DNA of 41,527 bases from Patescibacteria group bacterium (GTDB lineage: Bacteria > Patescibacteriota > Patescibacteriia > UBA2591 > CALHIP01), in assembly GCA_026417895.1 (NCBI GenBank), contig JAOACJ010000015.1, positions 1-41,527 on the forward strand. Direction: 5' to 3'. The notes below the pieces were generated by a model, which was not told the origin of the DNA, searched no databases, and worked only from the letters and a program-made list of their open reading frames with translations. The translations under genes were made by a program, and so were the position numbers. Below, one piece after another: positions 1,067 through 41,527 of the stretch. Each line of letters starts with the position of its first letter. Positions within the stretch are counted from its first letter, which is position 1.

Positions 1067-2722
1067 ATGAAAGAGATTTCTATTTTAATTGGCGGAATGG
1101 CCGGCGACGGAATTCGCCAGGGCGCCCATTTAATTGGCGAATTATTCAACGAGCTCGGCTACTGGCTTTTTATTTACGATGACTACCCTTCTTTGATCAG
1201 TGGTGGCCATAATTTTTCTGTTATCAGAGCAGCGGAAAAACAAATTTTTTCTCATCGAGAGAAAGTTGATTTTGCCATTGCTTTTAATGAAGAGACAGTG
1301 AAAAAACATCAAAAGAAGTGGAAAAAGGAAACAATTTTAATTTATGATTCAACAAATTTTAAAATTCAGCAGGGATATGGCTGTCCCTTTTTTAAAATCA
1401 TTCAAGATTATTCTTTGCCTTCAGTAATGAAGAATACTATAGCACTTGGTTTTTTCGCCGGACTGTGCCAAATAAATTTTTCTTTAGTTCAAAAAGTTGT
1501 TAAGAAAATTATTGTCAAAAAAATTGACGAAAATATAAAAATAGCACAGGAAGGTTATGAGGAGGGGAGAAAAATTGAAAACAAATTCAATATAAAAAAA
1601 TTAACACAGAAACCAAAAATCCTATGTACTGGTAACGAAGCAACAGCATTGGGTGCGAAACAGGCTGGTTTAAAAATTTATTTTGCCTATCCAATGACGC
1701 CAGTCACCCCGATTCTTCATTTTTTGGCCGCTCATCAAAAGGAATTTGGCGTTAAAGTCATTCAGCCAGAAAATGAAATTGCCGTTGCTTTAATGGCTGA
1801 AGGGGCGGCTTATACCGGAAAACGAACAATGGTTGGCACTTCTGGTGGTGGTTTTGCTTTGATGGTTGAATCTCTAAGCCTGGCTGGTCAAGCAGAAATT
1901 CCCCTTCTTTACGTCTATGGACAACGGCCAGGTCCTTCAACCGGTGTCCCGACTTACACCGCTCAAGCCGATCTTCAATTTGTTTTAAAAGCAGGTCATG
2001 GGGAATTTTCTCGTTTAGTTTTAGCGCCAAGTAATGTTGATGAAGCTTTTTATTTAACAGGTCTGGCTTTGAATTTGGCTTGGCGTTATCAAATACCAGC
2101 CGTCGTCCTAACTGATAAACATTTGGGCGAGAGTATTTTTTCTGCTACTTTTCAAAAAAATAAAGTTAAAGAAGAAAGACCAAAAATTTGGTCAGGGCGA
2201 GGAAAATATCAAAGATATCTTTCGACAAAAGATGGTATTTCTCCACTAGCCTTTCCTGGTGGTAAAGCAATTGTTAAATCAACTGGTTATGAACACAATG
2301 AATTTGGTTTGACTGTTGAAGAATCAGAACAAATTAAAAAAATGGTTGAAAAAAGATTAAAAAAACAGAAGACATTAGAGAAAGAATTAAAGAAGAGAAA
2401 AACCATTAATGTTTACGGAACTCGGCGAAGTAAAATTGCTTTACTGACCTGGGGTTCGACTACTGGCGTGGTGAGGGAAATTGGTGAAAAATTGGGTTTA
2501 AAAGTTATTCAACCTCTTTTCTTACAGCCCTGGCCAGTAGAAGATTTAAAAAAAGAGTTGAGAGGTGTCAAAAAAATTATTGATATTGAAATGAATACCA
2601 CTGGCCAGTTGGCTGATTTATTAGATTCGTCCAGGATTGTCGTTAATCAAAAAATTTTAAAGTATGATGGCAGGCCATTTACTTTAGATGAGTTAGAAAA
2701 TAAAATAAAAAAATTTCTATGA
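1067..2722 (+). CDS. 2-oxoacid:ferredoxin oxidoreductase, fused gamma-alpha subunit
   Basis: 551 residues. Residues 1-180 form the gamma domain (IGGMAGDGIRQGAHLIGE, then DYPSLISGGHNFSVI). From about 185 onward is the alpha pyrimidine-binding domain (GNEATALGAKQAG, YPMTPVTPILHFLA, PENEIAVALMAEGAAYTG, TSGGGFALM), followed by domain II (GSTTGVVREI, FLQPWP). This gamma-alpha fusion is typical of the KorA-like branch. With the beta subunit it would oxidatively decarboxylate a 2-oxoacid to an acyl-CoA and reduce ferredoxin, in the cytoplasm. The substrate (pyruvate, 2-oxoglutarate or a branched-chain acid) cannot be read from sequence. Its stop overlaps the beta-subunit start by 4 bases, implying translational coupling. 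Confidence 0.92.
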   Translation: MKEISILIGGMAGDGIRQGAHLIGELFNELGYWLFIYDDYPSLISGGHNFSVIRAAEKQIFSHREKVDFAIAFNEETVKKHQKKWKKETILIYDSTNFKIQQGYGCPFFKIIQDYSLPSVMKNTIALGFFAGLCQINFSLVQKVVKKIIVKKIDENIKIAQEGYEEGRKIENKFNIKKLTQKPKILCTGNEATALGAKQAGLKIYFAYPMTPVTPILHFLAAHQKEFGVKVIQPENEIAVALMAEGAAYTGKRTMVGTSGGGFALMVESLSLAGQAEIPLLYVYGQRPGPSTGVPTYTAQADLQFVLKAGHGEFSRLVLAPSNVDEAFYLTGLALNLAWRYQIPAVVLTDKHLGESIFSATFQKNKVKEERPKIWSGRGKYQRYLSTKDGISPLAFPGGKAIVKSTGYEHNEFGLTVEESEQIKKMVEKRLKKQKTLEKELKKRKTINVYGTRRSKIALLTWGSTTGVVREIGEKLGLKVIQPLFLQPWPVEDLKKELRGVKKIIDIEMNTTGQLADLLDSSRIVVNQKILKYDGRPFTLDELENKIKKFL

Positions 2723-3513
2723 ATCAAGAAAATCTAAGAACAGGGGCAATAAATACCTGGTGTCCCGGTTGTGGAAATTTTGCTTTACAAAATGCTTTAA
2801 TTTCTGCTCTTGATGAATTAATTCAAGAAGGTTTCACTAAAGAAAACTTTGTTCTTGTTACTGGCATCGGTTGTCATGGAAAGATGGCTGACTATCTAAA
2901 TCTCAATAGTTTCTATTCTTTACATGGTCGAGCTGTTCCAGTGGCAACAGGGATAAAATTAGCTCAGCCAAAACTGATTCCGATTGTCTGTGTTGGTGAC
3001 GGCGATGTCTATAGTGAAGGTTTGGAGCATTTAATTTTTGCCGCCAAAAGAAATTCTGAAATTAAAGTTTTGGTTCATAATAATCGTGTTTTTAGTTTAA
3101 CCACTGGACAATTTACACCGACATCGCCAAAGGGCTTTATTAGCAAATCAGCGCCACAGGGAAATATTGAGGAACCTTTAAATCCTATTGAATTAATGTT
3201 GGTCAGTGGTGCTTCTTTTGTCGCTCGTGGTTATGTCGGCAGAAGTGGTCATTTGAAAAATTTAATCAAAAAAGCCATTCTTCATCACGGCTTTGCTTTC
3301 ATTGATATTCTTCAACCTTGTGTCGTCTATTTTAACACCTACAATTTTTATAATCAAAATATCTATGAACTAGAAGAAAAAGAGTTAGACAATTTTTCTC
3401 TGGCTCTAGAAAAGTCCCGCCAGTGGCGTTACCAAAATTCAGGTCAAATTCCTATTGGTCTCTTTTATCAAAAAGAAAGACCCACATTTGAAGAAGAAAT
3501 TTTGAAAGAATAA
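2719..3513 (+). CDS. 2-oxoacid:ferredoxin oxidoreductase, beta (TPP-binding) subunit
   Basis: 264 residues. WCPGCG (14-19), IGCHG (50-54) and LQPC near the C-terminal third supply the cysteines expected for the proximal [4Fe-4S] cluster. The thiamine diphosphate motif starts GDGD at 93-96 and ends at the NN near 111, followed by FSLTTGQFTPTS, which matches the family signature. There is no fused ferredoxin (delta) domain, so the stand-alone ferredoxin at 830 probably fills that role. It overlaps the alpha-subunit gene by 4 bases. An AT-only inverted repeat follows the stop. Confidence 0.92.
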   Translation: MNQENLRTGAINTWCPGCGNFALQNALISALDELIQEGFTKENFVLVTGIGCHGKMADYLNLNSFYSLHGRAVPVATGIKLAQPKLIPIVCVGDGDVYSEGLEHLIFAAKRNSEIKVLVHNNRVFSLTTGQFTPTSPKGFISKSAPQGNIEEPLNPIELMLVSGASFVARGYVGRSGHLKNLIKKAILHHGFAFIDILQPCVVYFNTYNFYNQNIYELEEKELDNFSLALEKSRQWRYQNSGQIPIGLFYQKERPTFEEEILKE

Positions 3514-3517
3514 AAAA

Positions 3518-3561
3518 ATATTTTAGATATCTATTAAAAAAATTTTTTTATTTCTAAATAT
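3518..3561 (+). terminator. Possible AT-rich hairpin terminator after the oxidoreductase operon
   Basis: The arms ATATTTTAGA and TCTAAATAT, with one bulge, enclose a perfect palindrome of A7T7 flanked by T and A. It lies right after the korB-like stop and before the tRNA promoter. It has almost no G or C, so its strength as a terminator is doubtful. Confidence 0.3.
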
Positions 3562-3575
3562 GGTTATTGAAATAT

Positions 3576-3604
3576 TTGACTTTATCACTTTTTTGTGATA
3601 GAAT
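3576..3604 (+). promoter_or_regulatory. Promoter of the two CAT-anticodon tRNA genes
   Basis: The -35 is TTGACT (3576-3581), the spacer is 17 bp, and the -10 is TAGAAT (3599-3604) preceded by TGA (extended -10). The spacer holds a perfect inverted repeat, TATCAC/GTGATA (3583-3600). The mature tRNA begins 11 bases after the -10. Confidence 0.7.
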
Positions 3605-3615
3605 TAAAAGTCAAA

Positions 3616-3690
3616 AGCGGGGTAGAGCAGTGGCAGCTCGCCAGGCCCATAATCTGGAGGTCGTGGGTTCGAATCCCACCCCCGCAACCA
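3616..3690 (+). tRNA. Initiator tRNA-fMet (CAT) with unusual anticodon arm
   Basis: Acceptor GCGGGG/CCCCGC leaves an unpaired first position (A1 opposite A72), the hallmark that marks an initiator for formylation. The D arm has A11:U24 and CCA is encoded at 3688-3690. The anticodon stem is CCAGG/TCTGG with loop CCCATAA. The pairs at 29-41, 30-40 and 31-39 are therefore A-U, G-C and G-U, not three G-C, and position 33 is C where U is nearly universal. The T arm GTGGG/CCCAC with TTCGAAT is normal. The next tRNA starts at the following base. Confidence 0.92.
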
Positions 3691-3762
3691 GGCAGGGTAG
3701 CTCAGTGGTAGAGCAACGGATTCATAATCCGTCTGTCATGGGTTCGAATCCCATCCCTGCTA
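3691..3762 (+). tRNA. tRNA with CAT anticodon, probably elongator Met (tRNA-Ile2 possible)
   Basis: Acceptor GGCAGGG/CCCTGCT (ending in a G1:U72 pair), D arm GCTC/GAGC, anticodon stem ACGGA/TCCGT with loop TTCATAA, T arm ATGGG/CCCAT, discriminator A, CCA not encoded. A fully paired acceptor and U33 exclude an initiator. Elongator Met and lysidine-modified Ile(CAT) cannot be separated with confidence by eye; the acceptor and anticodon arms look closer to Gram-positive elongator Met. A T8 run follows. Confidence 0.88.
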
Positions 3763-3794
3763 TTTTTTTTATTTAACCTTGTGGATAACTTCCC

Positions 3795-3832
3795 TTGTTT
3801 TTTTCATCTTAAGTAGTATGATAGTGTATGAT
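3795..3832 (+). promoter_or_regulatory. Promoter with 10-bp-spaced direct repeat upstream of the RHH fusion gene
   Basis: The -35-like TTGTTT (3795-3800), a 16-bp spacer and TATGAT (3817-3822) form a promoter. GTATGAT occurs twice, at 3816-3822 and 3826-3832, exactly 10 bp apart, so the two copies face the same side of the helix and cover the -10. Ribbon-helix-helix repressors often bind such phased repeats, and the next gene encodes an RHH domain. Autoregulation is an inference. Confidence 0.45.
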
Positions 3833-3858
3833 GATTTAATCCTTTATCTAAGCAGTTT

Positions 3859-4698
3859 ATGAGGAGACAACGATTAACAATTACCATGAAAAAAGATCTC
3901 ATTAATCTTTTAGACAAACAAATTGATAGGGAAAAATTAAGAAATCGTTCTCAGGCTATTGAATATTTTCTTTCCCAATTACTTTTGCCGAAAGTGACAA
4001 AAGTCTTAATTTTGGCTGGCGGTGAAGGGGTTAAATTCAGACCCCTTACCTACGAAATGCCAAAAGCTCTAATTCCAATAAAAGAAAAACCACTTTTAGA
4101 ATATACCTTAGAAAATTTGAAAAAATATAACTTTTCTGAAATTGTCATTTCTATTGGTCATCTTGGGCGAAAAATAAAAGAATATTTTAAAGATGGGAAA
4201 AAATTTGGTTTAAATATATCCTATTTAGTCCAAGAGAAAAAGACACCGGGTACTGCTCAACCAGTTAAACAGGCTGAAAAAATTTTAAAGAATGAAACTT
4301 TTTTCTTAATTTATGGCGATGTTTTGGCTGAAATTGACTATCAGGATCTTTTAAATTTTCATCAATCTCATCATGGCATAGTGACAATGGCTTTAGCCTC
4401 AGTTGATCGGCCAAGTGATTGGGGGGTTGCAGAAATGCGAGGCAATTTAATTACTAATTTTCTAGAAAAACCAAAAGAAAAAATCCGTTCCCACTTAGTC
4501 AATGCTGGAATTTTTGTTTGTCAGCCAGAAATTTTTCGGTACCTGAGAAAAAATTCAGAACGCTTAGAGAAAGATGTTTTTCCAATTTTGGTTCGTGAGA
4601 AAAAACTTTATGGTTATCCATTTGAAGGTGAATGGGCGGATCTTTCCACTCCAGAGATTTACGAAGAAGTTTTGAAAAATTTTCAATATTGTTTTTAA
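3859..4698 (+). CDS. Ribbon-helix-helix domain fused to sugar-phosphate nucleotidyltransferase
   Basis: 279 residues. Residues 1-45 look like an RHH (CopG/MetJ-type) DNA-binding domain: a basic beta strand (RRQRLTITM), a helix, then RNRSQAIEYFLSQLL. From about residue 48 an NTP_transferase domain follows: LILAGGEG, FRPLTYEMPKALIPI, YGDVLAEID with a metal-binding Asp, FLEKPKE, NAGIFV, and a final GEWADLSTPE. The signature loop reads GEGVKFRPLT instead of the usual G-x-G-T-R-x-R-P-L-T. The enzyme half should activate a sugar-1-phosphate to an NDP-sugar; the sugar is not predictable. The RHH half implies DNA binding, perhaps at its own promoter. The ATG at 3859 is required to include the RHH strand. 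Confidence 0.85.
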   Translation: MRRQRLTITMKKDLINLLDKQIDREKLRNRSQAIEYFLSQLLLPKVTKVLILAGGEGVKFRPLTYEMPKALIPIKEKPLLEYTLENLKKYNFSEIVISIGHLGRKIKEYFKDGKKFGLNISYLVQEKKTPGTAQPVKQAEKILKNETFFLIYGDVLAEIDYQDLLNFHQSHHGIVTMALASVDRPSDWGVAEMRGNLITNFLEKPKEKIRSHLVNAGIFVCQPEIFRYLRKNSERLEKDVFPILVREKKLYGYPFEGEWADLSTPEIYEEVLKNFQYCF

Positions 4699-12068: not shown

Positions 12069-13451
12069 ATGGATTTATCTCAATTCAAAAAAGTTCATTT
12101 TATTGGTATTGGCGGCATTGGCGTTTCAGCGGTGGCAAAAATGATGATTCTTTTGGGTAAAAAGGTTTCCGGTTCTGATTTATTCGCCTCAGAAATTACT
12201 GATGATTTAAAAAGGGAAGGGGCAAAGATTTTTATTGGGCATCAAAAAGAAAATCTAGCTAAAGATATTGATTTAGTAATTTATTCACCGGCTGTGCCGG
12301 AAGATAATATAGAAAGAAAAAGGGCGAGAGAATTGGAGATTTTATCATTTTCTTACCCAAAATTTTTAGGCAAACTTTCAAAAAATTATTTTACCATTAC
12401 TGTTTCAGGAACACATGGCAAAACTACCACCACTGCTTTAATCGGTTTAATTTTAGAAAAAGCCGGCCTTGATCCAACTGTGGTGGTTGGTTCAAAAGTT
12501 AATAATTTTCAAGAAGGTAATTTTCGTTTTGGCAAAAGTAAATATCTTGTTGTTGAAGCCTGCGAGTGGAGAGCGCATATGTTGAATTTTCGGCCACAAA
12601 TAATTGTCTTGACTAATTTAGAAGAAGACCATTTAGATTATTATAAAAATCTTGACGATATTATTTTCCATTTTCAGAAATATATTGACCAAATGTCAGG
12701 TGATGGAAAAATTATTTTGAATATTGATAATGAAAATTTATTTAAAAGACTTTTACCTCATCGCAAAGTTGTTAGTTATGGTATCAAAAAACCGGCTGAT
12801 GTAGTGGCGAAAAATATTAAAATTATTTCTGGTTTTCAGGAGTTTGATTTAATAGTTGACTCTAAAGTGCATCATCTAAGACTAAAAGTGCCAGGAATCT
12901 TTAATATTTATAATGCTTTGGCGGCTTCAACCGCTGCCTTAAGTTTAGGAATTAAATTAGAAATTATTAGAGAAGTTTTAGAAAATTATTCTGGCTGTTG
13001 GCGGCGTTTTGAAGTTAAAGATTTTAAAATTGAAAATTTAAAATTGAAAATTATTTCTGATTATGCTCATCATCCAACAGCTATTCAAGAGACAATTCAA
13101 GCCGCTCGCGAATTCTATCCGAATAAAAGAATTTTTGTTATTTTTCAGCCACACCATCATCATCGGACCAAGGTTCTTTTTGATGATTTTGTGAAAAGTT
13201 TTGATAGAGTGGATTTGGCTATTATTTCTGAAATTTATGGAGTGGCCGGTCGAGAGAAAAGTGCGGATCAAAACATTAGTTCAAAAGATCTAGTCAAGAA
13301 AGTAATTGAAAGAACTGGTAAAAAAATTATCTATACTAGAAACTTAGAGGAAACGAAAAAACTTATTTTAAAAAATATCCAGCCCAACGATGTTATTTTA
13401 ATTATGGGGGCTGGTGATATCTATACAATTATTGATCAATTGATAAAATAG
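12069..13451 (+). CDS. murC: UDP-N-acetylmuramate--L-alanine ligase
   Basis: 460 residues. Motifs: HFIGIGGIGVSAVAKMM (Rossmann UDP-binding loop), the P-loop GTHGKTTTTALI starting at residue 114, TNLEEDHLDYY, NIYNALAA, and SDYAHHPTAIQETIQAA from residue 330. It adds L-Ala to UDP-MurNAc in the cytoplasm, the first step of the peptide stem of peptidoglycan. Just before the DYAHHP motif, residues about 318-328 (FKIENLKLKI) are encoded by five degenerate 7-bp units, an addition of the same type seen in murB. An epimerase-like gene starts 6 bases after the stop. Confidence 0.95.
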   Translation: MDLSQFKKVHFIGIGGIGVSAVAKMMILLGKKVSGSDLFASEITDDLKREGAKIFIGHQKENLAKDIDLVIYSPAVPEDNIERKRARELEILSFSYPKFLGKLSKNYFTITVSGTHGKTTTTALIGLILEKAGLDPTVVVGSKVNNFQEGNFRFGKSKYLVVEACEWRAHMLNFRPQIIVLTNLEEDHLDYYKNLDDIIFHFQKYIDQMSGDGKIILNIDNENLFKRLLPHRKVVSYGIKKPADVVAKNIKIISGFQEFDLIVDSKVHHLRLKVPGIFNIYNALAASTAALSLGIKLEIIREVLENYSGCWRRFEVKDFKIENLKLKIISDYAHHPTAIQETIQAAREFYPNKRIFVIFQPHHHHRTKVLFDDFVKSFDRVDLAIISEIYGVAGREKSADQNISSKDLVKKVIERTGKKIIYTRNLEETKKLILKNIQPNDVILIMGAGDIYTIIDQLIK

Positions 13452-13933: not shown

Positions 13934-13941
13934 GGAACCTT

Positions 13942-13969
13942 AAACTATAAACTATAAACTATAAACTAT
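13942..13969 (+). repeat. Four tandem copies of a 7-bp repeat in the galE leader
   Basis: TAAACTA is repeated four times in tandem and runs directly into the galE start codon (the final copy provides the A and T of the ATG region). There is no Shine-Dalgarno sequence between the repeat and the ATG. A perfect 7-bp tandem repeat at this place could change leader length by strand slippage. Confidence 0.85.
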
Positions 13970-26576: not shown

Positions 26577-27323
26577 ATGAAGAAAAATAATAAAATTCTT
26601 ATTGGCACTTCCGGTTGGAATTACTTTCACTGGCGAAGAATTTTTTATCCAGTAAATTTAAATTCTCAGGAATTACTTTCTTACTACGCTCAACATCTTT
26701 CTACTGTTGAAATTAATTCTTCTTTTTATCATCTTCCGCAAGAAAAGACATTTCTGCATTGGCGAGAAAAAGTACCAAAAAATTTTTTATTTTCCGTAAA
26801 AGTTTGGCGGCGGATTACCCATCTCAAAAAATTGAATCAAACTGAAGATGATTTAAAAACTTTTTGGCAGCGATCTCTAGTTCTCAAAGAGAAATTAGGT
26901 CCCTTATTATTTCAATTTCCACCTTCTTTTAAATTAAATCAGATAAGATTTAAAAAATTTTGTCAATTTCTTAGAAAATTGGTTGGGAAAAATCAAAAGG
27001 CAAGCTTTGAATTTAGAAATGAAAGTTGGTTTTCTTCAGAAGTTTATAAAATTTTAAGAAAATATAACTTTGCTCTTTGTTGGGCCGACGCCCCTTGTTA
27101 TCCTTATAAAGAAGTGGTTACCGCTGATTATCTTTATCTTCGTCTCCATGGTCATGAGCAACTTTATGCTTCAAAATATACAAAAAGACAGTTAGAGGCT
27201 TACGCCAAAAAAATAAAAGAATTTTTTAAGAAAGGAAAAATGATTTATGTCTATTTTGATAACGATGCTTATGGTTATGCCATCGAAAATGCCTTAGAAC
27301 TGAAAAAGTTATTAAAAAAATGA
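26577..27323 (+). CDS. DUF72 family protein (YecE-like)
   Basis: 248 residues. Characteristic DUF72 motifs: GTSGWNYFHWRRIFYP at the N terminus, YYAQHLSTVEINSSFYHLP, FLFSVKVWRRITHLKKL, LLFQFPPSF, SFEFRNESWF, and the C-terminal YLRLHGHEQLYASKYT and YVYFDNDAYGYAIENALEL. The family folds as a TIM barrel whose function is uncertain. It overlaps murB by 4 bases (ATGA), implying coupled translation, although a functional link to cell-wall synthesis is not known. Confidence 0.9.
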   Translation: MKKNNKILIGTSGWNYFHWRRIFYPVNLNSQELLSYYAQHLSTVEINSSFYHLPQEKTFLHWREKVPKNFLFSVKVWRRITHLKKLNQTEDDLKTFWQRSLVLKEKLGPLLFQFPPSFKLNQIRFKKFCQFLRKLVGKNQKASFEFRNESWFSSEVYKILRKYNFALCWADAPCYPYKEVVTADYLYLRLHGHEQLYASKYTKRQLEAYAKKIKEFFKKGKMIYVYFDNDAYGYAIENALELKKLLKK

Positions 27324-28294
27324 ATTTCGATCAAAAACTAAAGAAAGAGTTAGGCAAAAATTTGAAATTTAATGAACCATTAAAAAAATGGACAACCTTT
27401 CGCATCGGTGGACCGGCTAGATATTTTTTTCTAGCCAAAAGCGGAAAAGATTTAATTAAAGCAGTTACTTTAGCTAAAAAATTAAAAATTCCATATTTTA
27501 TTTTAGGTGGGGGGAGTAATTTATTATGTAGTGATGTGGGATATAATGGATTAATTATCAAAATTCAAAATTCAAAATTCAAAATTCAAAATTCAAAAAT
27601 TTTGGCTGAAGCGGGAACGAAGTTAAGTCAATTAGTAAGAATTTCTTTAGAAAGAAAATTAACTGGTTTAGAATGGGCGGCTGGTATTCCTGGGACTTTG
27701 GGTGGAGCCATTCACGGCAATGCTGGTTGGCCATCTAAGAGAAAAAATATTTCCACTGTTGTCGAAAGTGTTGAAGTGTTAAAGATTGATGATGGTAAAT
27801 TAAAAATTGAAAAATTTTCTCGGCACGATTGTCAATTTGGTTATCGGGCAAGTATTTTTCAAAAAAATAATAATTTGGTTATTCTTTCCGCTCTTTTAAA
27901 ATTAAAAAAGGGAAATAAAGAAAAAATTAAAAAAGAGATTATAGAAATTTTAAAAATAAGACAAAAGAAAATTCCCCAAGGTTTTTCTGCCGGTTGCATT
28001 TTTAAAAATTCAAAATTCAAAATTCAAAATTCAAAATTACTAAAAGAATATCCACAATTGAAAGAATTTAAAAAATCTGGTATTATTCCTACCGGATGGT
28101 TAATTGAAAAATTAGGTCTTAAAGGCAAAAAAATCGGTGGCGCTAAAATTAGCGAAAAACACGCTAATTTTATTATTAATCAAGGGGGGGCCAAAGCCAA
28201 AGATGTTTTAAAACTTATTAATTTAATTGAGAAAATGGTTTTAAAGAAATTTAATCTTAAATTAGAAAAAGAAATAAAATTAATTGGTTTCTAA
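27320..28294 (+). CDS. murB: UDP-N-acetylenolpyruvoylglucosamine reductase
   Basis: 324 residues. FAD-binding: TTFRIGGPARYF, ILGGGSNLLCSD. AGIPGTLGGAIHGNAG and QFGYRASIFQ are MurB signatures. SAGCIFKN holds the general-acid residue as Cys where many MurB have Ser. SEKHANFIINQGGAKAKDV and the closing LEKEIKLIGF (catalytic Glu) complete it. It makes UDP-MurNAc, the substrate of MurC. Two loops are built from 7-bp repeats: residues about 80-94 (KIQNSKFKIQNSKIL) and a stretch right after the active-site FKN (SKFKIQNSKLL). They replace ordinary loop sequence without disturbing the motifs. Confidence 0.95.
   Translation: MNFDQKLKKELGKNLKFNEPLKKWTTFRIGGPARYFFLAKSGKDLIKAVTLAKKLKIPYFILGGGSNLLCSDVGYNGLIIKIQNSKFKIQNSKILAEAGTKLSQLVRISLERKLTGLEWAAGIPGTLGGAIHGNAGWPSKRKNISTVVESVEVLKIDDGKLKIEKFSRHDCQFGYRASIFQKNNNLVILSALLKLKKGNKEKIKKEIIEILKIRQKKIPQGFSAGCIFKNSKFKIQNSKLLKEYPQLKEFKKSGIIPTGWLIEKLGLKGKKIGGAKISEKHANFIINQGGAKAKDVLKLINLIEKMVLKKFNLKLEKEIKLIGF
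27559..27600 (+). repeat. Heptanucleotide array inside murB, first copy
   Basis: Five perfect tandem copies of CAAAATT followed by one imperfect copy. Three units (21 bp) encode the heptapeptide KIQNSKF, so the array stays open in this frame. Confidence 0.95.
28004..28038 (+). repeat. Heptanucleotide array inside murB, second copy
   Basis: One imperfect unit and four perfect CAAAATT units lie directly after the codons for the active-site CIFKN. They are read in the same phase as the first array (SKFKIQNSK). Confidence 0.95.
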
Positions 28295-34042: not shown

Positions 34043-34930
34043 ATGAAACTCTCGATTATTATTGTTAATTGGCAAACGAAAAATTTCTTAGAAAAATGTT
34101 TAAAATCTATTCAAAGTTATGGTAAGAACTATAGCGAGAATATAGATTTTGAAACCATTGTGATTGACAATAATTCAAATGACGAAAGTCGAAAATTTTT
34201 ATCTGAATTCAAAATTCAAAATTCAAAATTCAAAATTATTTTAAATCATAAAAACCTCGGTTTTGCTCGGGCGGTCAATCGGGGGATAAAATTATCAAAA
34301 GGTGAGTACATTTTACTTTTAAATCCAGACACAGAAATCAAGGAAAATACTTTTAAAATACTTGAGTTTATGGAAAGTCATTTAAAGATTGGTGTTTGTG
34401 GTGGTAAAATTTTAAATTCTGATGGTACTCTTCAAAATTCAGTCAGAAAATTTCCTAATCTCGTCTCCCAAATTTTTGTCTTATTAAAAATTCATCATTT
34501 CTTTAGAAATTTTAAACCAATTAGGAATTATTTTGCCTTAGACTTTGATTATAGTAAAACCCAAGAAGTTGATCAGGTTATGGGTTCGTTTTTTATGGTG
34601 AGAAAAAAATTGATTGAGGAAATTGGTTTCTTTGACGAAAAATTCTTTCTCTGGTTTGAAGAAGTTGATTTTTGTCGGCGAGCGAAAAAGGCTGGCTGGC
34701 AAATTTATTATTATCCAGAAGCAGAAATCATTCATCAAAAAGCAACCAGTTTTTCACAAGTTTCACCTTTTAAAAATCAGTGGCAATTTAATCAATCTTT
34801 GTTATACTATTTTAAGAAACATCATTCTTTTTTTAGTTGGTTTATTTTACTACTTCTTCAACCAATCAGTTTACTTCTTTCTTTAATCGTCTCGTTCTTG
34901 CCTGGGATTAAAAAACTTAAAAAACTATAA
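34043..34930 (+). CDS. Family 2 glycosyltransferase
   Basis: 295 residues. GT-A fold signs: LSIIIVNWQTKNFLEKCLKS, VIDNNSNDES, NLGFARAVNRGIKLSKGEYILLLNPD with the metal-binding Asp, and GSFFMVRKKLIEEIGFFDE then FEEVDFCRRAKKAGW. A C-terminal hydrophobic region (residues about 262-288) attaches it to the membrane. It resembles rhamnosyltransferase-like GT2 enzymes that act on lipid-linked glycans. Residues about 56-65 (FKIQNSKFKI) come from an in-frame 7-bp repeat. Sugar specificity cannot be read. Confidence 0.92.
   Translation: MKLSIIIVNWQTKNFLEKCLKSIQSYGKNYSENIDFETIVIDNNSNDESRKFLSEFKIQNSKFKIILNHKNLGFARAVNRGIKLSKGEYILLLNPDTEIKENTFKILEFMESHLKIGVCGGKILNSDGTLQNSVRKFPNLVSQIFVLLKIHHFFRNFKPIRNYFALDFDYSKTQEVDQVMGSFFMVRKKLIEEIGFFDEKFFLWFEEVDFCRRAKKAGWQIYYYPEAEIIHQKATSFSQVSPFKNQWQFNQSLLYYFKKHHSFFSWFILLLLQPISLLLSLIVSFLPGIKKLKKL
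34208..34235 (+). repeat. Heptanucleotide array inside a glycosyltransferase gene
   Basis: Four tandem copies of TTCAAAA (the same unit as CAAAATT in murB, rotated) are read as FKIQNSKFKI. The insert lies in the loop between the first Asp motif and NLGFA, at the protein surface in GT-A folds. Confidence 0.95.
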
Positions 34931-34931
34931 C

Positions 34932-34994
34932 CAGCAATCAGCAACTAACAACTAGCAACCAACAACCAACAAATAATAACTAATAATTAATAAC
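34932..34994 (+). repeat. Nine-unit degenerate heptad array upstream of the PycTM-like gene
   Basis: Exactly nine consecutive 7-bp units (63 bp) fit YARYAAY: CAGCAAT, CAGCAAC, TAACAAC, TAGCAAC, CAACAAC, CAACAAA, TAATAAC, TAATAAT, TAATAAC. It occupies almost the whole 70-base gap and ends 6 bases before the ATG at 35001. There is no Shine-Dalgarno sequence or clear promoter in it. Confidence 0.85.
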
Positions 34995-35000
34995 TATCCT

Positions 35001-35468: not shown

Positions 35469-36950
35469 ATGAGAGTTTTTTTTCAAAAGCCATATCTAAT
35501 CTTTTTATTATTAATTGTTTTTTTTGAACTACTTTCCTTTTTGGGTTATCTTGTCCCTTTAATTAATCGTTTTGCCTTTCTGCTTATCAGTCTTAGTTTT
35601 CTTTTTTTAACTTTTTGGAAGTTGGAATATGGCATTTTTGTTCTTTTAGCTGAACTTTTTATTGGTTCAAAGGGTTATCTTTTTTATTTACCAATTGGCC
35701 CAATCAAAATTTCTCTTCGAATGATTCTTTTTAGTTTAGTAATGTTGATTTGGTTGATTGGAATTATCCGAAAAAAATATAAATTAAATTTTCTTCACTC
35801 AAAATTTTTTAAATTCTATTTTCTATTTTCTATTTTCTATCTCTGGGGTGTTTTAGCTGGTTTCCTTTATCGCAATTCAAAAGATTTAATTTTTTTCGAT
35901 GCCAATGCTTGGCTTTATTTTCTTCTTGTTTTTCCAATTTTCGACGTCATTAAAAAAGAACATTTAGATAAAATTTTTAAAATTTTATCTGCGGCGATAA
36001 GCTGGTTAGCCATTAAAACCTTTATTCTCTTTTTTATCTTTACTCACCAGATTCCTTTTATTACCATTGATCTCTATCGCTGGACAAGGCGGCATGGTTT
36101 AGGAGAAATTACTCAACTTGATTCTTTTTATCGTATTTTTTTGCAATCGCAGATTTATTCTTTAATTGGTTTTTTTATTTTTCTATCTATTTTTGTTTTT
36201 TTATTGAAAAAGAAGAAAGTAAGTTTTTTTTCTTTCCTTTCTCTTTTTCTATCTGTTGTGCCAATTTTGATAAGCTTTTCACGAAGCTTCTGGCTAGGAT
36301 TTGTTTTCACTTTGATAATTTTCTTTCTTTTTCTTAAAATAAAAGAAAATTTTTCTTGTTTTGATTTAGGTAAAATATTTTTCATTATTTTGTTAGTTTT
36401 TCTGCTTTCCTTTGGTTTGATTTGGCTTTCTTTAAGACTGCCGCCAAAAATTAGAATAGATTTAGCCAGTTTGGTTGAGAAAAGAATGGAGATAGAAGAA
36501 CCAGCCACCTCGTCAAGACTATTACAGTTACCTCATCTTCTCGACGCTATTTTAGAAAAACCAATTTTTGGTGCTGGTTTTGGCAAAACCATTTCTTATT
36601 TTTCTACCGATCCAAGAATTTTAGGTTATTATACGACCTATGCTTTTGAGTGGGGATACTTAGACATCTGGTTAAAAATTGGTTTCGTTGGCTTAAGCGT
36701 CTTTCTGATTTTTATCGGAAAGATTTTTAAAGAAGGATGGAAAATAGTTGAAAATTGTAAATTGAAAATTGAGAATTTCCAAAAATCTCTAATTCTTGGT
36801 TTATTGTCTGGTCTGGTGGCTTTAGGAATGACTCATTTTACCTCACCTTACCTCAACCACCCTTTGGGTATAGGTTATTTAATTATTTGTTTAACTATTT
36901 TTAACCAAATATCATATGAAAGTGGCTATTCAAATTGTCACTTGGAATAG
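35469..36950 (+). CDS. O-antigen ligase/polymerase-like membrane protein (Wzy/WaaL family)
   Basis: 493 residues with about 10-12 membrane helices and a large loop near residues 330-400 (RLLQLPHLLDAILEKPIFGAGFG). FSRSFWLGFVFTLIIFF and the GxGFGKT region are typical of Wzy_C (O-antigen ligase) proteins. It would polymerise or transfer glycan repeat units at the outer face of the membrane. Residues about 427-437 (IVENCKLKIENF) are encoded by degenerate 7-bp units. Its 3' end overlaps the next glycosyltransferase gene by 35 bases in another frame. Confidence 0.85.
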   Translation: MRVFFQKPYLIFLLLIVFFELLSFLGYLVPLINRFAFLLISLSFLFLTFWKLEYGIFVLLAELFIGSKGYLFYLPIGPIKISLRMILFSLVMLIWLIGIIRKKYKLNFLHSKFFKFYFLFSIFYLWGVLAGFLYRNSKDLIFFDANAWLYFLLVFPIFDVIKKEHLDKIFKILSAAISWLAIKTFILFFIFTHQIPFITIDLYRWTRRHGLGEITQLDSFYRIFLQSQIYSLIGFFIFLSIFVFLLKKKKVSFFSFLSLFLSVVPILISFSRSFWLGFVFTLIIFFLFLKIKENFSCFDLGKIFFIILLVFLLSFGLIWLSLRLPPKIRIDLASLVEKRMEIEEPATSSRLLQLPHLLDAILEKPIFGAGFGKTISYFSTDPRILGYYTTYAFEWGYLDIWLKIGFVGLSVFLIFIGKIFKEGWKIVENCKLKIENFQKSLILGLLSGLVALGMTHFTSPYLNHPLGIGYLIICLTIFNQISYESGYSNCHLE

Positions 36951-41132: not shown

Positions 41133-41527
41133 TCATTTTTCCATATAGATGATTTTTATTTCTCTTCCTTGTTTTCTTAAGAATTCAATGGTTTGTTCAA
41201 TGAGTTTTATTTCATCTGTTCCGAGATTATTACTTCTCAAATCAAGACTCGTCACTTTATTATTCCCATCCTTCAAAGTCTCAGCTAATATTTTCATCCC
41301 TTCTAGTCCGAGACGGTTATATCTCAAATCAAGACTCGTCACCTTATTATTCTCATCCTTCAAAGCCTCAGCTAATATCTCCATCCCTTCTGGTTCGAGA
41401 CTATTACCACTCAAATCAAGACTCGTCACCTTATTATTCTCATCCTTCAAAGTCTCAGCTAATATTTTCATCCCTTCTGGTCTGAGATCATTACTTCCCA
41501 AATCAAGACTCGTCACTTTATTATTCC
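41133..41527 (-). CDS. Leucine-rich-repeat protein (ribonuclease-inhibitor type), 3' part
   Basis: The frame is open to the window edge, so the N terminus is missing. At least 131 residues are visible, made of 29-residue repeats with consensus NNKVTSLDLxxNxLxxEGM then ILAExLKDE. The LxLxxNxL core and following helix match the RI-like LRR class common in eukaryotes and in some bacterial effectors or surface proteins. The last repeat decays into a helical cap (ELIEQTIEFLRKQGREIKII-like). Function is unknown; LRRs of this kind usually bind proteins. The stop is at 41133-41135. Confidence 0.88.
   Translation of the reverse strand, partial: NNKVTSLDLGSNDLRPEGMKILAETLKDENNKVTSLDLSGNSLEPEGMEILAEALKDENNKVTSLDLRYNRLGLEGMKILAETLKDGNNKVTSLDLRSNNLGTDEIKLIEQTIEFLRKQGREIKIIYMEK
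41238..41527 (-). repeat. Nearly identical 87-bp tandem repeats encoding the LRRs
   Basis: The string CAAATCAAGACTCGTCAC starts at 41238, 41325, 41412 and 41499, exactly 87 bp apart. The units differ by few bases, mainly at the variable surface positions of the LRR. The array continues past the right edge. Confidence 0.95.

Follow-up and report, generated by a model that had tools for sequence, protein, structure and literature searches.

Seven-base tandem arrays in murB and other core genes of a Patescibacteria genome and their recurrence at variable sites in related genomes

The murB gene and the heptamer repeats of the window

The DNA analysed here (the window, 41,527 nucleotides) contains a murB gene whose reading frame holds two tandem arrays of a seven-base unit, together with several related or similar repeats elsewhere. 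The features are listed by position:

13023-13052, + strand: imperfect related heptamer AAAATTG in murC, peptide FKIENLKLKI before SDYAHHP (TRF, period 7 and 14)
13941-13969, + strand: intergenic heptamer (TAAACTA)4.1, with stops on both strands (repeat call)
27320-28294, + strand: murB, UDP-N-acetylmuramate dehydrogenase, 324 amino acids, host of both arrays (PF02873, PF01565, PRK13905.1 and TIGR00179 above their cut-offs; solved MurBs match most of its length)
27558-27598, + strand: heptamer array 1, (TCAAAAT)5.9, residues 80-93, in the variable segment between the conserved GLxIK and AxAG motifs (100% match; length as in array-free MurBs; a hot spot in the class)
28005-28038, + strand: heptamer array 2, (AAAATTC)4.9, residues 229-240, beginning on the Lys-Asn codons of the C-I-F-K-N motif (100% match; at the edge of the most variable MurB window, residues 233-244)
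34206-34237, + strand: third array of the CAAAATT unit, (AATTCAA)4.6, in a family-2 glycosyltransferase (34043-34930), peptide FKIQNSKFKI (repeat call, translation)
34942-34996, + strand: intergenic imperfect heptamer (CAACTAA)7.9 (repeat call)
35814-35840, + strand: T-rich heptamer (TTCTATT)3.9 in a hydrophobic segment of an O-antigen-ligase-like membrane protein (35469-36950) (repeat call)

The murB product scored 282.6 bits against NCBIfam PRK13905.1 (cut-off 259) and 232.2 bits against TIGR00179 murB (cut-off 144.5), and it carries the SxGxxFKN-type motif. Both arrays lie within the single open frame 27320-28294, which encodes a full-length MurB, just as the initial annotation had described. 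Array 1 encodes IKIQNSKFKIQNSK (residues 80-93) and array 2 encodes KNSKFKIQNSKL (residues 229-240), and both translate to the cyclic heptapeptide KIQNSKF. The second array had been placed directly after the catalytic motif, and its first bases are indeed the codons of Lys229-Asn230 in the FKN motif. Cys226 (27995-27997) occupies the position of E. coli Ser229, and both Cys and Ser are common there across the class. An AlphaFold2 model of MurB made with two sequences as input had a mean pLDDT of 52, falling below 50 over most of array 1; judging from the alignment and the sequence pattern, the segment around this array (site 1) may be hairpin-like. From its role in the peptidoglycan pathway, murB is presumably essential in this organism.

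The initial annotation assumed that only arrays in a suitable phase keep the reading frame, which is not the case for this unit. None of the three sense frames of CAAAATT contains a stop, and each of them gives the identical cyclic heptapeptide KIQNSKF, because 7 and 3 share no factor; phase is therefore irrelevant and only the net length change modulo 3 counts. On the antisense strand, TGA appears within 21 bp in every frame. At this base composition roughly one heptamer unit in two lacks stops on any given strand, and coding heptamers are therefore not intrinsically rare.

A tandem repeat of a different kind, with an 87-bp unit in 3.6 copies (41215-41526), encodes a leucine-rich-repeat protein and reaches the edge of the window.

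Heptamer arrays across the genome

The window belongs to a 650 kb draft genome of 18 contigs that is 98% complete. We determined the spectrum of repeat periods in a 318 kb sample of this genome, in which some stretches were centred on known AAAATTC arrays. Among exact arrays of at least three units with periods from 4 to 21, period 7 was found 19 times, period 10 four times and each other period 0-3 times. Five third-order Markov shuffles of the same sample produced 0 exact period-7 arrays, and chance is therefore excluded. A draft of 18 contigs could harbour misassemblies and AT-rich sequence eases the formation of short repeats, yet the empty shuffles, the length of the arrays (at most 41 bp, well within a typical sequencing read) and the recurrence of the pattern at matching codons across many genomes that were assembled independently, presented below, make chance or an assembly artefact barely credible as an explanation.

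A search of the whole genome with three CAAAATT units gave 18 overlapping matches that resolve into nine arrays, three of them in the window, while the control pattern read backwards had no match anywhere in the genome. Nine arrays of at least three units is the highest number among the 286 genomes of the class that were searched. The copies are plain direct repeats, without inverted-repeat structure and without common flanks. At a looser cut-off the 318 kb sample contained 28 heptamer arrays, 12 with the unit AAAATTC and 16 with other units; the share of AAAATTC is an upper estimate, from the sampling around known AAAATTC arrays, and the 16 arrays with other units show that the dominance of period 7 is not due to the AAAATTC-centred stretches alone.

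Twenty of the 28 arrays lie inside open frames, two at gene ends and six between genes, and most sit in conserved genes. The 12 AAAATTC arrays without exception occupy genes or the end of one, always on the stop-free strand, and the T-rich units encode parts of signal peptides or stretches of membrane-spanning sequence. The units that contain stops whichever strand is read (AAAAATT, AAACTAT, AATAATT) occur between genes or where a gene ends, and four of the six intergenic units have stops on both strands. Arrays that were generated at random and then purged would be left in just such a distribution. The hosts include valS, leuS, gltX, fmt, tgt, pgk, ligA, a Mur ligase, a phosphoenolpyruvate-synthase-like gene, the end of rplO and glycosyltransferases; they were identified by length, motifs and, where tested, matches to solved structures, and otherwise from their translations.

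Recurrence at variable sites of MurB and LeuRS

To follow the murB arrays through the class we aligned 146 MurB genes, that of the window and 145 others, and scored as a run any repeat with at least 11 matched positions. The 145 other genes contained 12 runs of period 7, with 0-1 for every other period apart from 14, a multiple of 7. In window numbering, seven of the 12 lie at site 1 (84-91) and three at 155-164, with single runs at site 2 (235) and at residue 8. The last two belong to L049, a gene left out of the statistics as it had been retrieved by a pattern with the array peptide KIQNSKFK; without it, seven of ten arrays fall in the 15-residue site 1 (81-95), with P = 5e-8 against uniform placement and P = 7e-6 when placement is restricted to the variable half. 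The units found at site 1 are TCAAATG (in two unrelated lineages), AAGTTAC, ATTACTA, GTTCATG, AAGATTA, AATGAAA and CAAAATT. Arrays at site 2 occur only in the window and L049, and in two genomes (G048 and G272) the MurB array is the sole locus with at least three units of its heptamer. Three MurB matches (L136, L138 and L144, from G284, G267 and G224) were reported with one internal stop codon each.

The arrays coincide with the variable parts of the protein. Among 313 twelve-residue MurB windows, site 1 ranks 5th in variability, site 2 ranks 3rd and the segment 155-166 ranks 10th, and all arrays fall, to within one residue, in the top four windows for variability that do not overlap (starts at 233, 82, 3 and 156). 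The idea that the arrays are a tolerated product agrees with this placement, and the alternative that all MurB homologues share the same conserved residues at these sites is contradicted by it. In a tree from which the columns of sites 1 and 2 had been left out, the window grouped with L049 and L025 (SH-aLRT 94), all three with CAAAATT-type sequence at site 1, and the other array bearers were scattered. Read in this way, site 1 was filled independently on several occasions, and in the group of the window, L049 and L025 it has probably been occupied since their ancestor. Even array-free genes show a 21-nt (seven-residue) periodicity at site 1 (z = 2.3). In 321 kb flanking the MurB genes the excess of period 7 was weak, with 5 arrays against 4 for period 9 at a stricter cut.

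A second core enzyme gave a similar picture. In LeuRS from 30 genomes we found 13 runs of period 7 and 0-2 of any other period apart from 14, clustered at 232-237, 272, 457 and 673-677, with four different units at 232-237 and two at 457. The length of LeuRS is constant at 272 and partly so at 235, and position 457 lies in a clade-specific insertion of about 35 amino acids. One leuS array is pure in both G000 and G001, whose LeuRS proteins are 77% identical and whose third positions agree in 61% of the other shared residues; codons this alike would arise by chance with a probability of about 0.008, which suggests, as modest evidence from one locus, continued homogenisation or re-formation of the array. 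In four other LeuRS proteins (L235, L248, L250 and L257) the zinc-finger region, equivalent to residues 438-472 of LeuRS in the window genome, contains an insert of 190-200 residues that resembles an alpha/beta hydrolase (GHSLGG or GHSAGG motif).

We considered whether KIQNSKF might be a selected protein feature, a useful strand-turn unit kept at hairpins whose DNA repeat would be a by-product of AT-rich codons. The native periodicity of site 1 in array-free genes would fit, as would the CAAAATT-type segment in all three MurBs of the window's clade; a seven-residue protein repeat does not itself yield a 7-nt DNA period, however, and units, hence peptides, vary between lineages, T-rich units encode quite different peptides and the codon identity of the LeuRS array goes beyond expectation, leaving this reading quite unlikely.

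In all array-bearing orthologues seen, of MurB and LeuRS alike, the number of units keeps the frame. This bears on the possibility that murB is a phase-variable contingency locus, switched off and on by slippage of one unit. Repeats of similar size act as such switches in other bacteria, and gain or loss of one 7-bp unit would shift the frame. Against this, the arrays lie in the middle of genes, and the hosts are housekeeping genes instead of the dispensable surface or virulence genes typical of contingency loci; for murB and most of the others (valS, leuS, gltX, pgk, ligA), expected to be essential, the OFF state would be lethal. We regard switching as very improbable.

The initial annotation took the arrays for inserts at loops, which the alignments do not bear out at site 1. 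Of 135 array-free MurBs, 117 have a segment of 23 residues here, as do 8 of the 11 that bear an array (decayed cases included), and solved MurBs align through this segment with a gap of one or two residues. Arrays at site 1 thus usually bring no extra residues and overwrite a segment of fixed length. The sister proteins L026 and L023 are 86% identical and equal in length, and their array-covering blocks retain 1 and 4 of 10 residues, against 9-10 in most other blocks; L089 and L090 likewise have diverged blocks at two array sites. Elsewhere, the Tgt array sits in an insertion of 16-19 amino acids and the PGK array causes almost no net length change, so that arrays arise both by overwriting and by insertion. 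Loops and hairpins of core enzymes can thus change in whole blocks rather than by single residues.

The same observations weigh on the proposal, one of two raised by the initial annotation, that a single CAAAATT array spread by copying in trans into many genes and was tolerated at surface loops, in the manner of the Rickettsia elements. It would account for the nine arrays in 650 kb, for unrelated genes that share the unit and for the Tgt and LeuRS arrays within insertions. It does not account for the absence of length gain at MurB site 1 or LeuRS 272, for the other units that relatives carry at the same sites or for units confined to a single locus of their genome (G048, G272), and we saw no terminal repeats, target duplication or coding partner. 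A search of the genome for reverse transcriptase (RVT_1) gave no match, a result that speaks against spreading and led us to reject copying driven by a reverse transcriptase as well. The unchanged length, the differing units and the single-copy units rule out a spreading element as the sole cause in MurB, and as a general explanation we think it unlikely; the other proposal, slippage, fits the data.

Probable origin of the arrays and relation to known heptamers

Instead of two inserts in a single gene, the murB arrays represent what one gene has received from a heptamer process that spans the genome and the class and in which variable parts of core enzymes are rewritten repeatedly. The reading we favour, and consider probable, is that they are coding members of a genome-wide heptamer class in which a heptamer-biased process makes or homogenises runs and selection filters them. 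Some process would favour making or homogenising short seven-base runs (about 3-6 units) anywhere in these genomes, most likely through misalignment of the polymerase by seven bases, and selection would then purge arrays that break genes. Three kinds would survive: units that have stops on each strand, chiefly in intergenic DNA; A-rich units with a stop-free sense strand, in variable segments of soluble proteins, where they would encode KIQNSKF-like strand-and-turn heptapeptides; and T-rich units in hydrophobic segments. MurB would offer few tolerant variable segments, one of them with a native seven-residue pattern, and arrays would arise there repeatedly, from different units and usually at constant length. 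On this account the arrays need have no function of their own. The period of seven would stem from generation and not from selection, because selection for the frame would favour periods of 6, 9 and 12, which are nearly absent from spectra that cover genomes of the class (the window genome and the MurB and LeuRS genes of relatives).

Among repeats with units of 5-11 nt, heptamers are reported to form the commonest class in most genomes (PMC4679880, PMC4692102), and an earlier proposal, as summarised in PMC4679880, attributes their frequency in bacteria to slippage across the seven bases that the polymerase holds. The present data fit such seven-base slippage and add that its products can be length-neutral. 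That AAAATTC makes up 12 of the 28 arrays argues against unlinked local events, unless composition and codon use favour this unit. A more specific mechanism, which we put forward tentatively and consider doubtful, is a heptamer-writing process in Patescibacteria, in which a transient misalignment by seven bases during DNA synthesis writes the previous seven bases across the following 20-40 before realigning, with no net indel. If true, this frame-neutral process would keep re-sculpting variable segments of essential proteins, with the MurB and LeuRS segments as its recorders.

Loss of mismatch repair was considered as a cause and set aside. The MutS core domain (PF00488, MutS_V) had no match in the 98% complete genome, yet this explains little about the period of seven; MutS repair is generally considered to miss loops of seven bases.

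The kinship to cyanobacterial heptanucleotide repeats (STRR) noted in the initial annotation is borne out, with perfect or near-perfect seven-base runs beyond chance at many loci of one genome. Like the STRR, the TAACTGA repeats of Beggiatoaceae and the GGGAATC repeats of Xanthomonas and Nostoc, the arrays have a seven-base unit, few units per array and many loci. The heptamers of Xanthomonas, Nostoc and Beggiatoaceae lie mostly between genes, and inside genes they are under-represented on the coding strand (PMC4679880, PMC4692102), whereas only 6 of 28 arrays are intergenic here (a mainly intergenic location describes the known heptamers but does not define them), and the dominant unit lies in essential genes, in sense orientation, at recurrent variable sites and often at constant length. 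Borg elements of archaea (PMC9879509) also contain A-rich tandem repeats in open frames with perfect amino-acid repeats; all units of their in-frame repeats are divisible by three and they often create disordered regions (PMC9879509), whereas the present unit has 7 nt and the MurB site-1 arrays fill an existing segment of fixed length. Palindromic elements of Rickettsia and other small mobile sequences (PMC2229807 is one example) likewise place short repetitive DNA in frame inside conserved genes; such elements are longer and have an inverted-repeat structure, unlike the simple seven-base runs with lineage-specific units described here.

The suggestion that coding heptamers are undescribed in the candidate phyla radiation agrees with our literature searches, which found no description for Patescibacteria and no paper for the array peptide strings or for simple sequence repeats in this radiation. 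Heptamer repeats as such are known; their coding, recurrent and often length-neutral form in essential Patescibacteria genes appears to be undescribed in the literature searched. The usual expectation is that repeat units within genes are divisible by three, and heptamers have been described mainly between genes; here seven-base repeats are found inside essential genes of reduced genomes and, with different units, recur at matching codons in separate lineages. The question of why heptamers are the commonest longer repeat of bacteria thereby becomes directly testable with alignments of orthologues. A warning also follows for annotation, in that KIQNSKF-like peptides common to unrelated Patescibacteria proteins do not indicate homology.

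In the murB gene of L049 (ORF 2995-3990), the TCAAATG array at site 2 is followed directly and in frame by the palindrome CCTGCCGGCAGG (peptide VLPAGRHGK), and LeuRS loops of other relatives contain 'PAGG' traces; together they suggest a second class of coding repeats. In a Nealsonbacteria genome, SecA (L050, secA gene 1145-3706) carries KIQNSKFKIQNSE.
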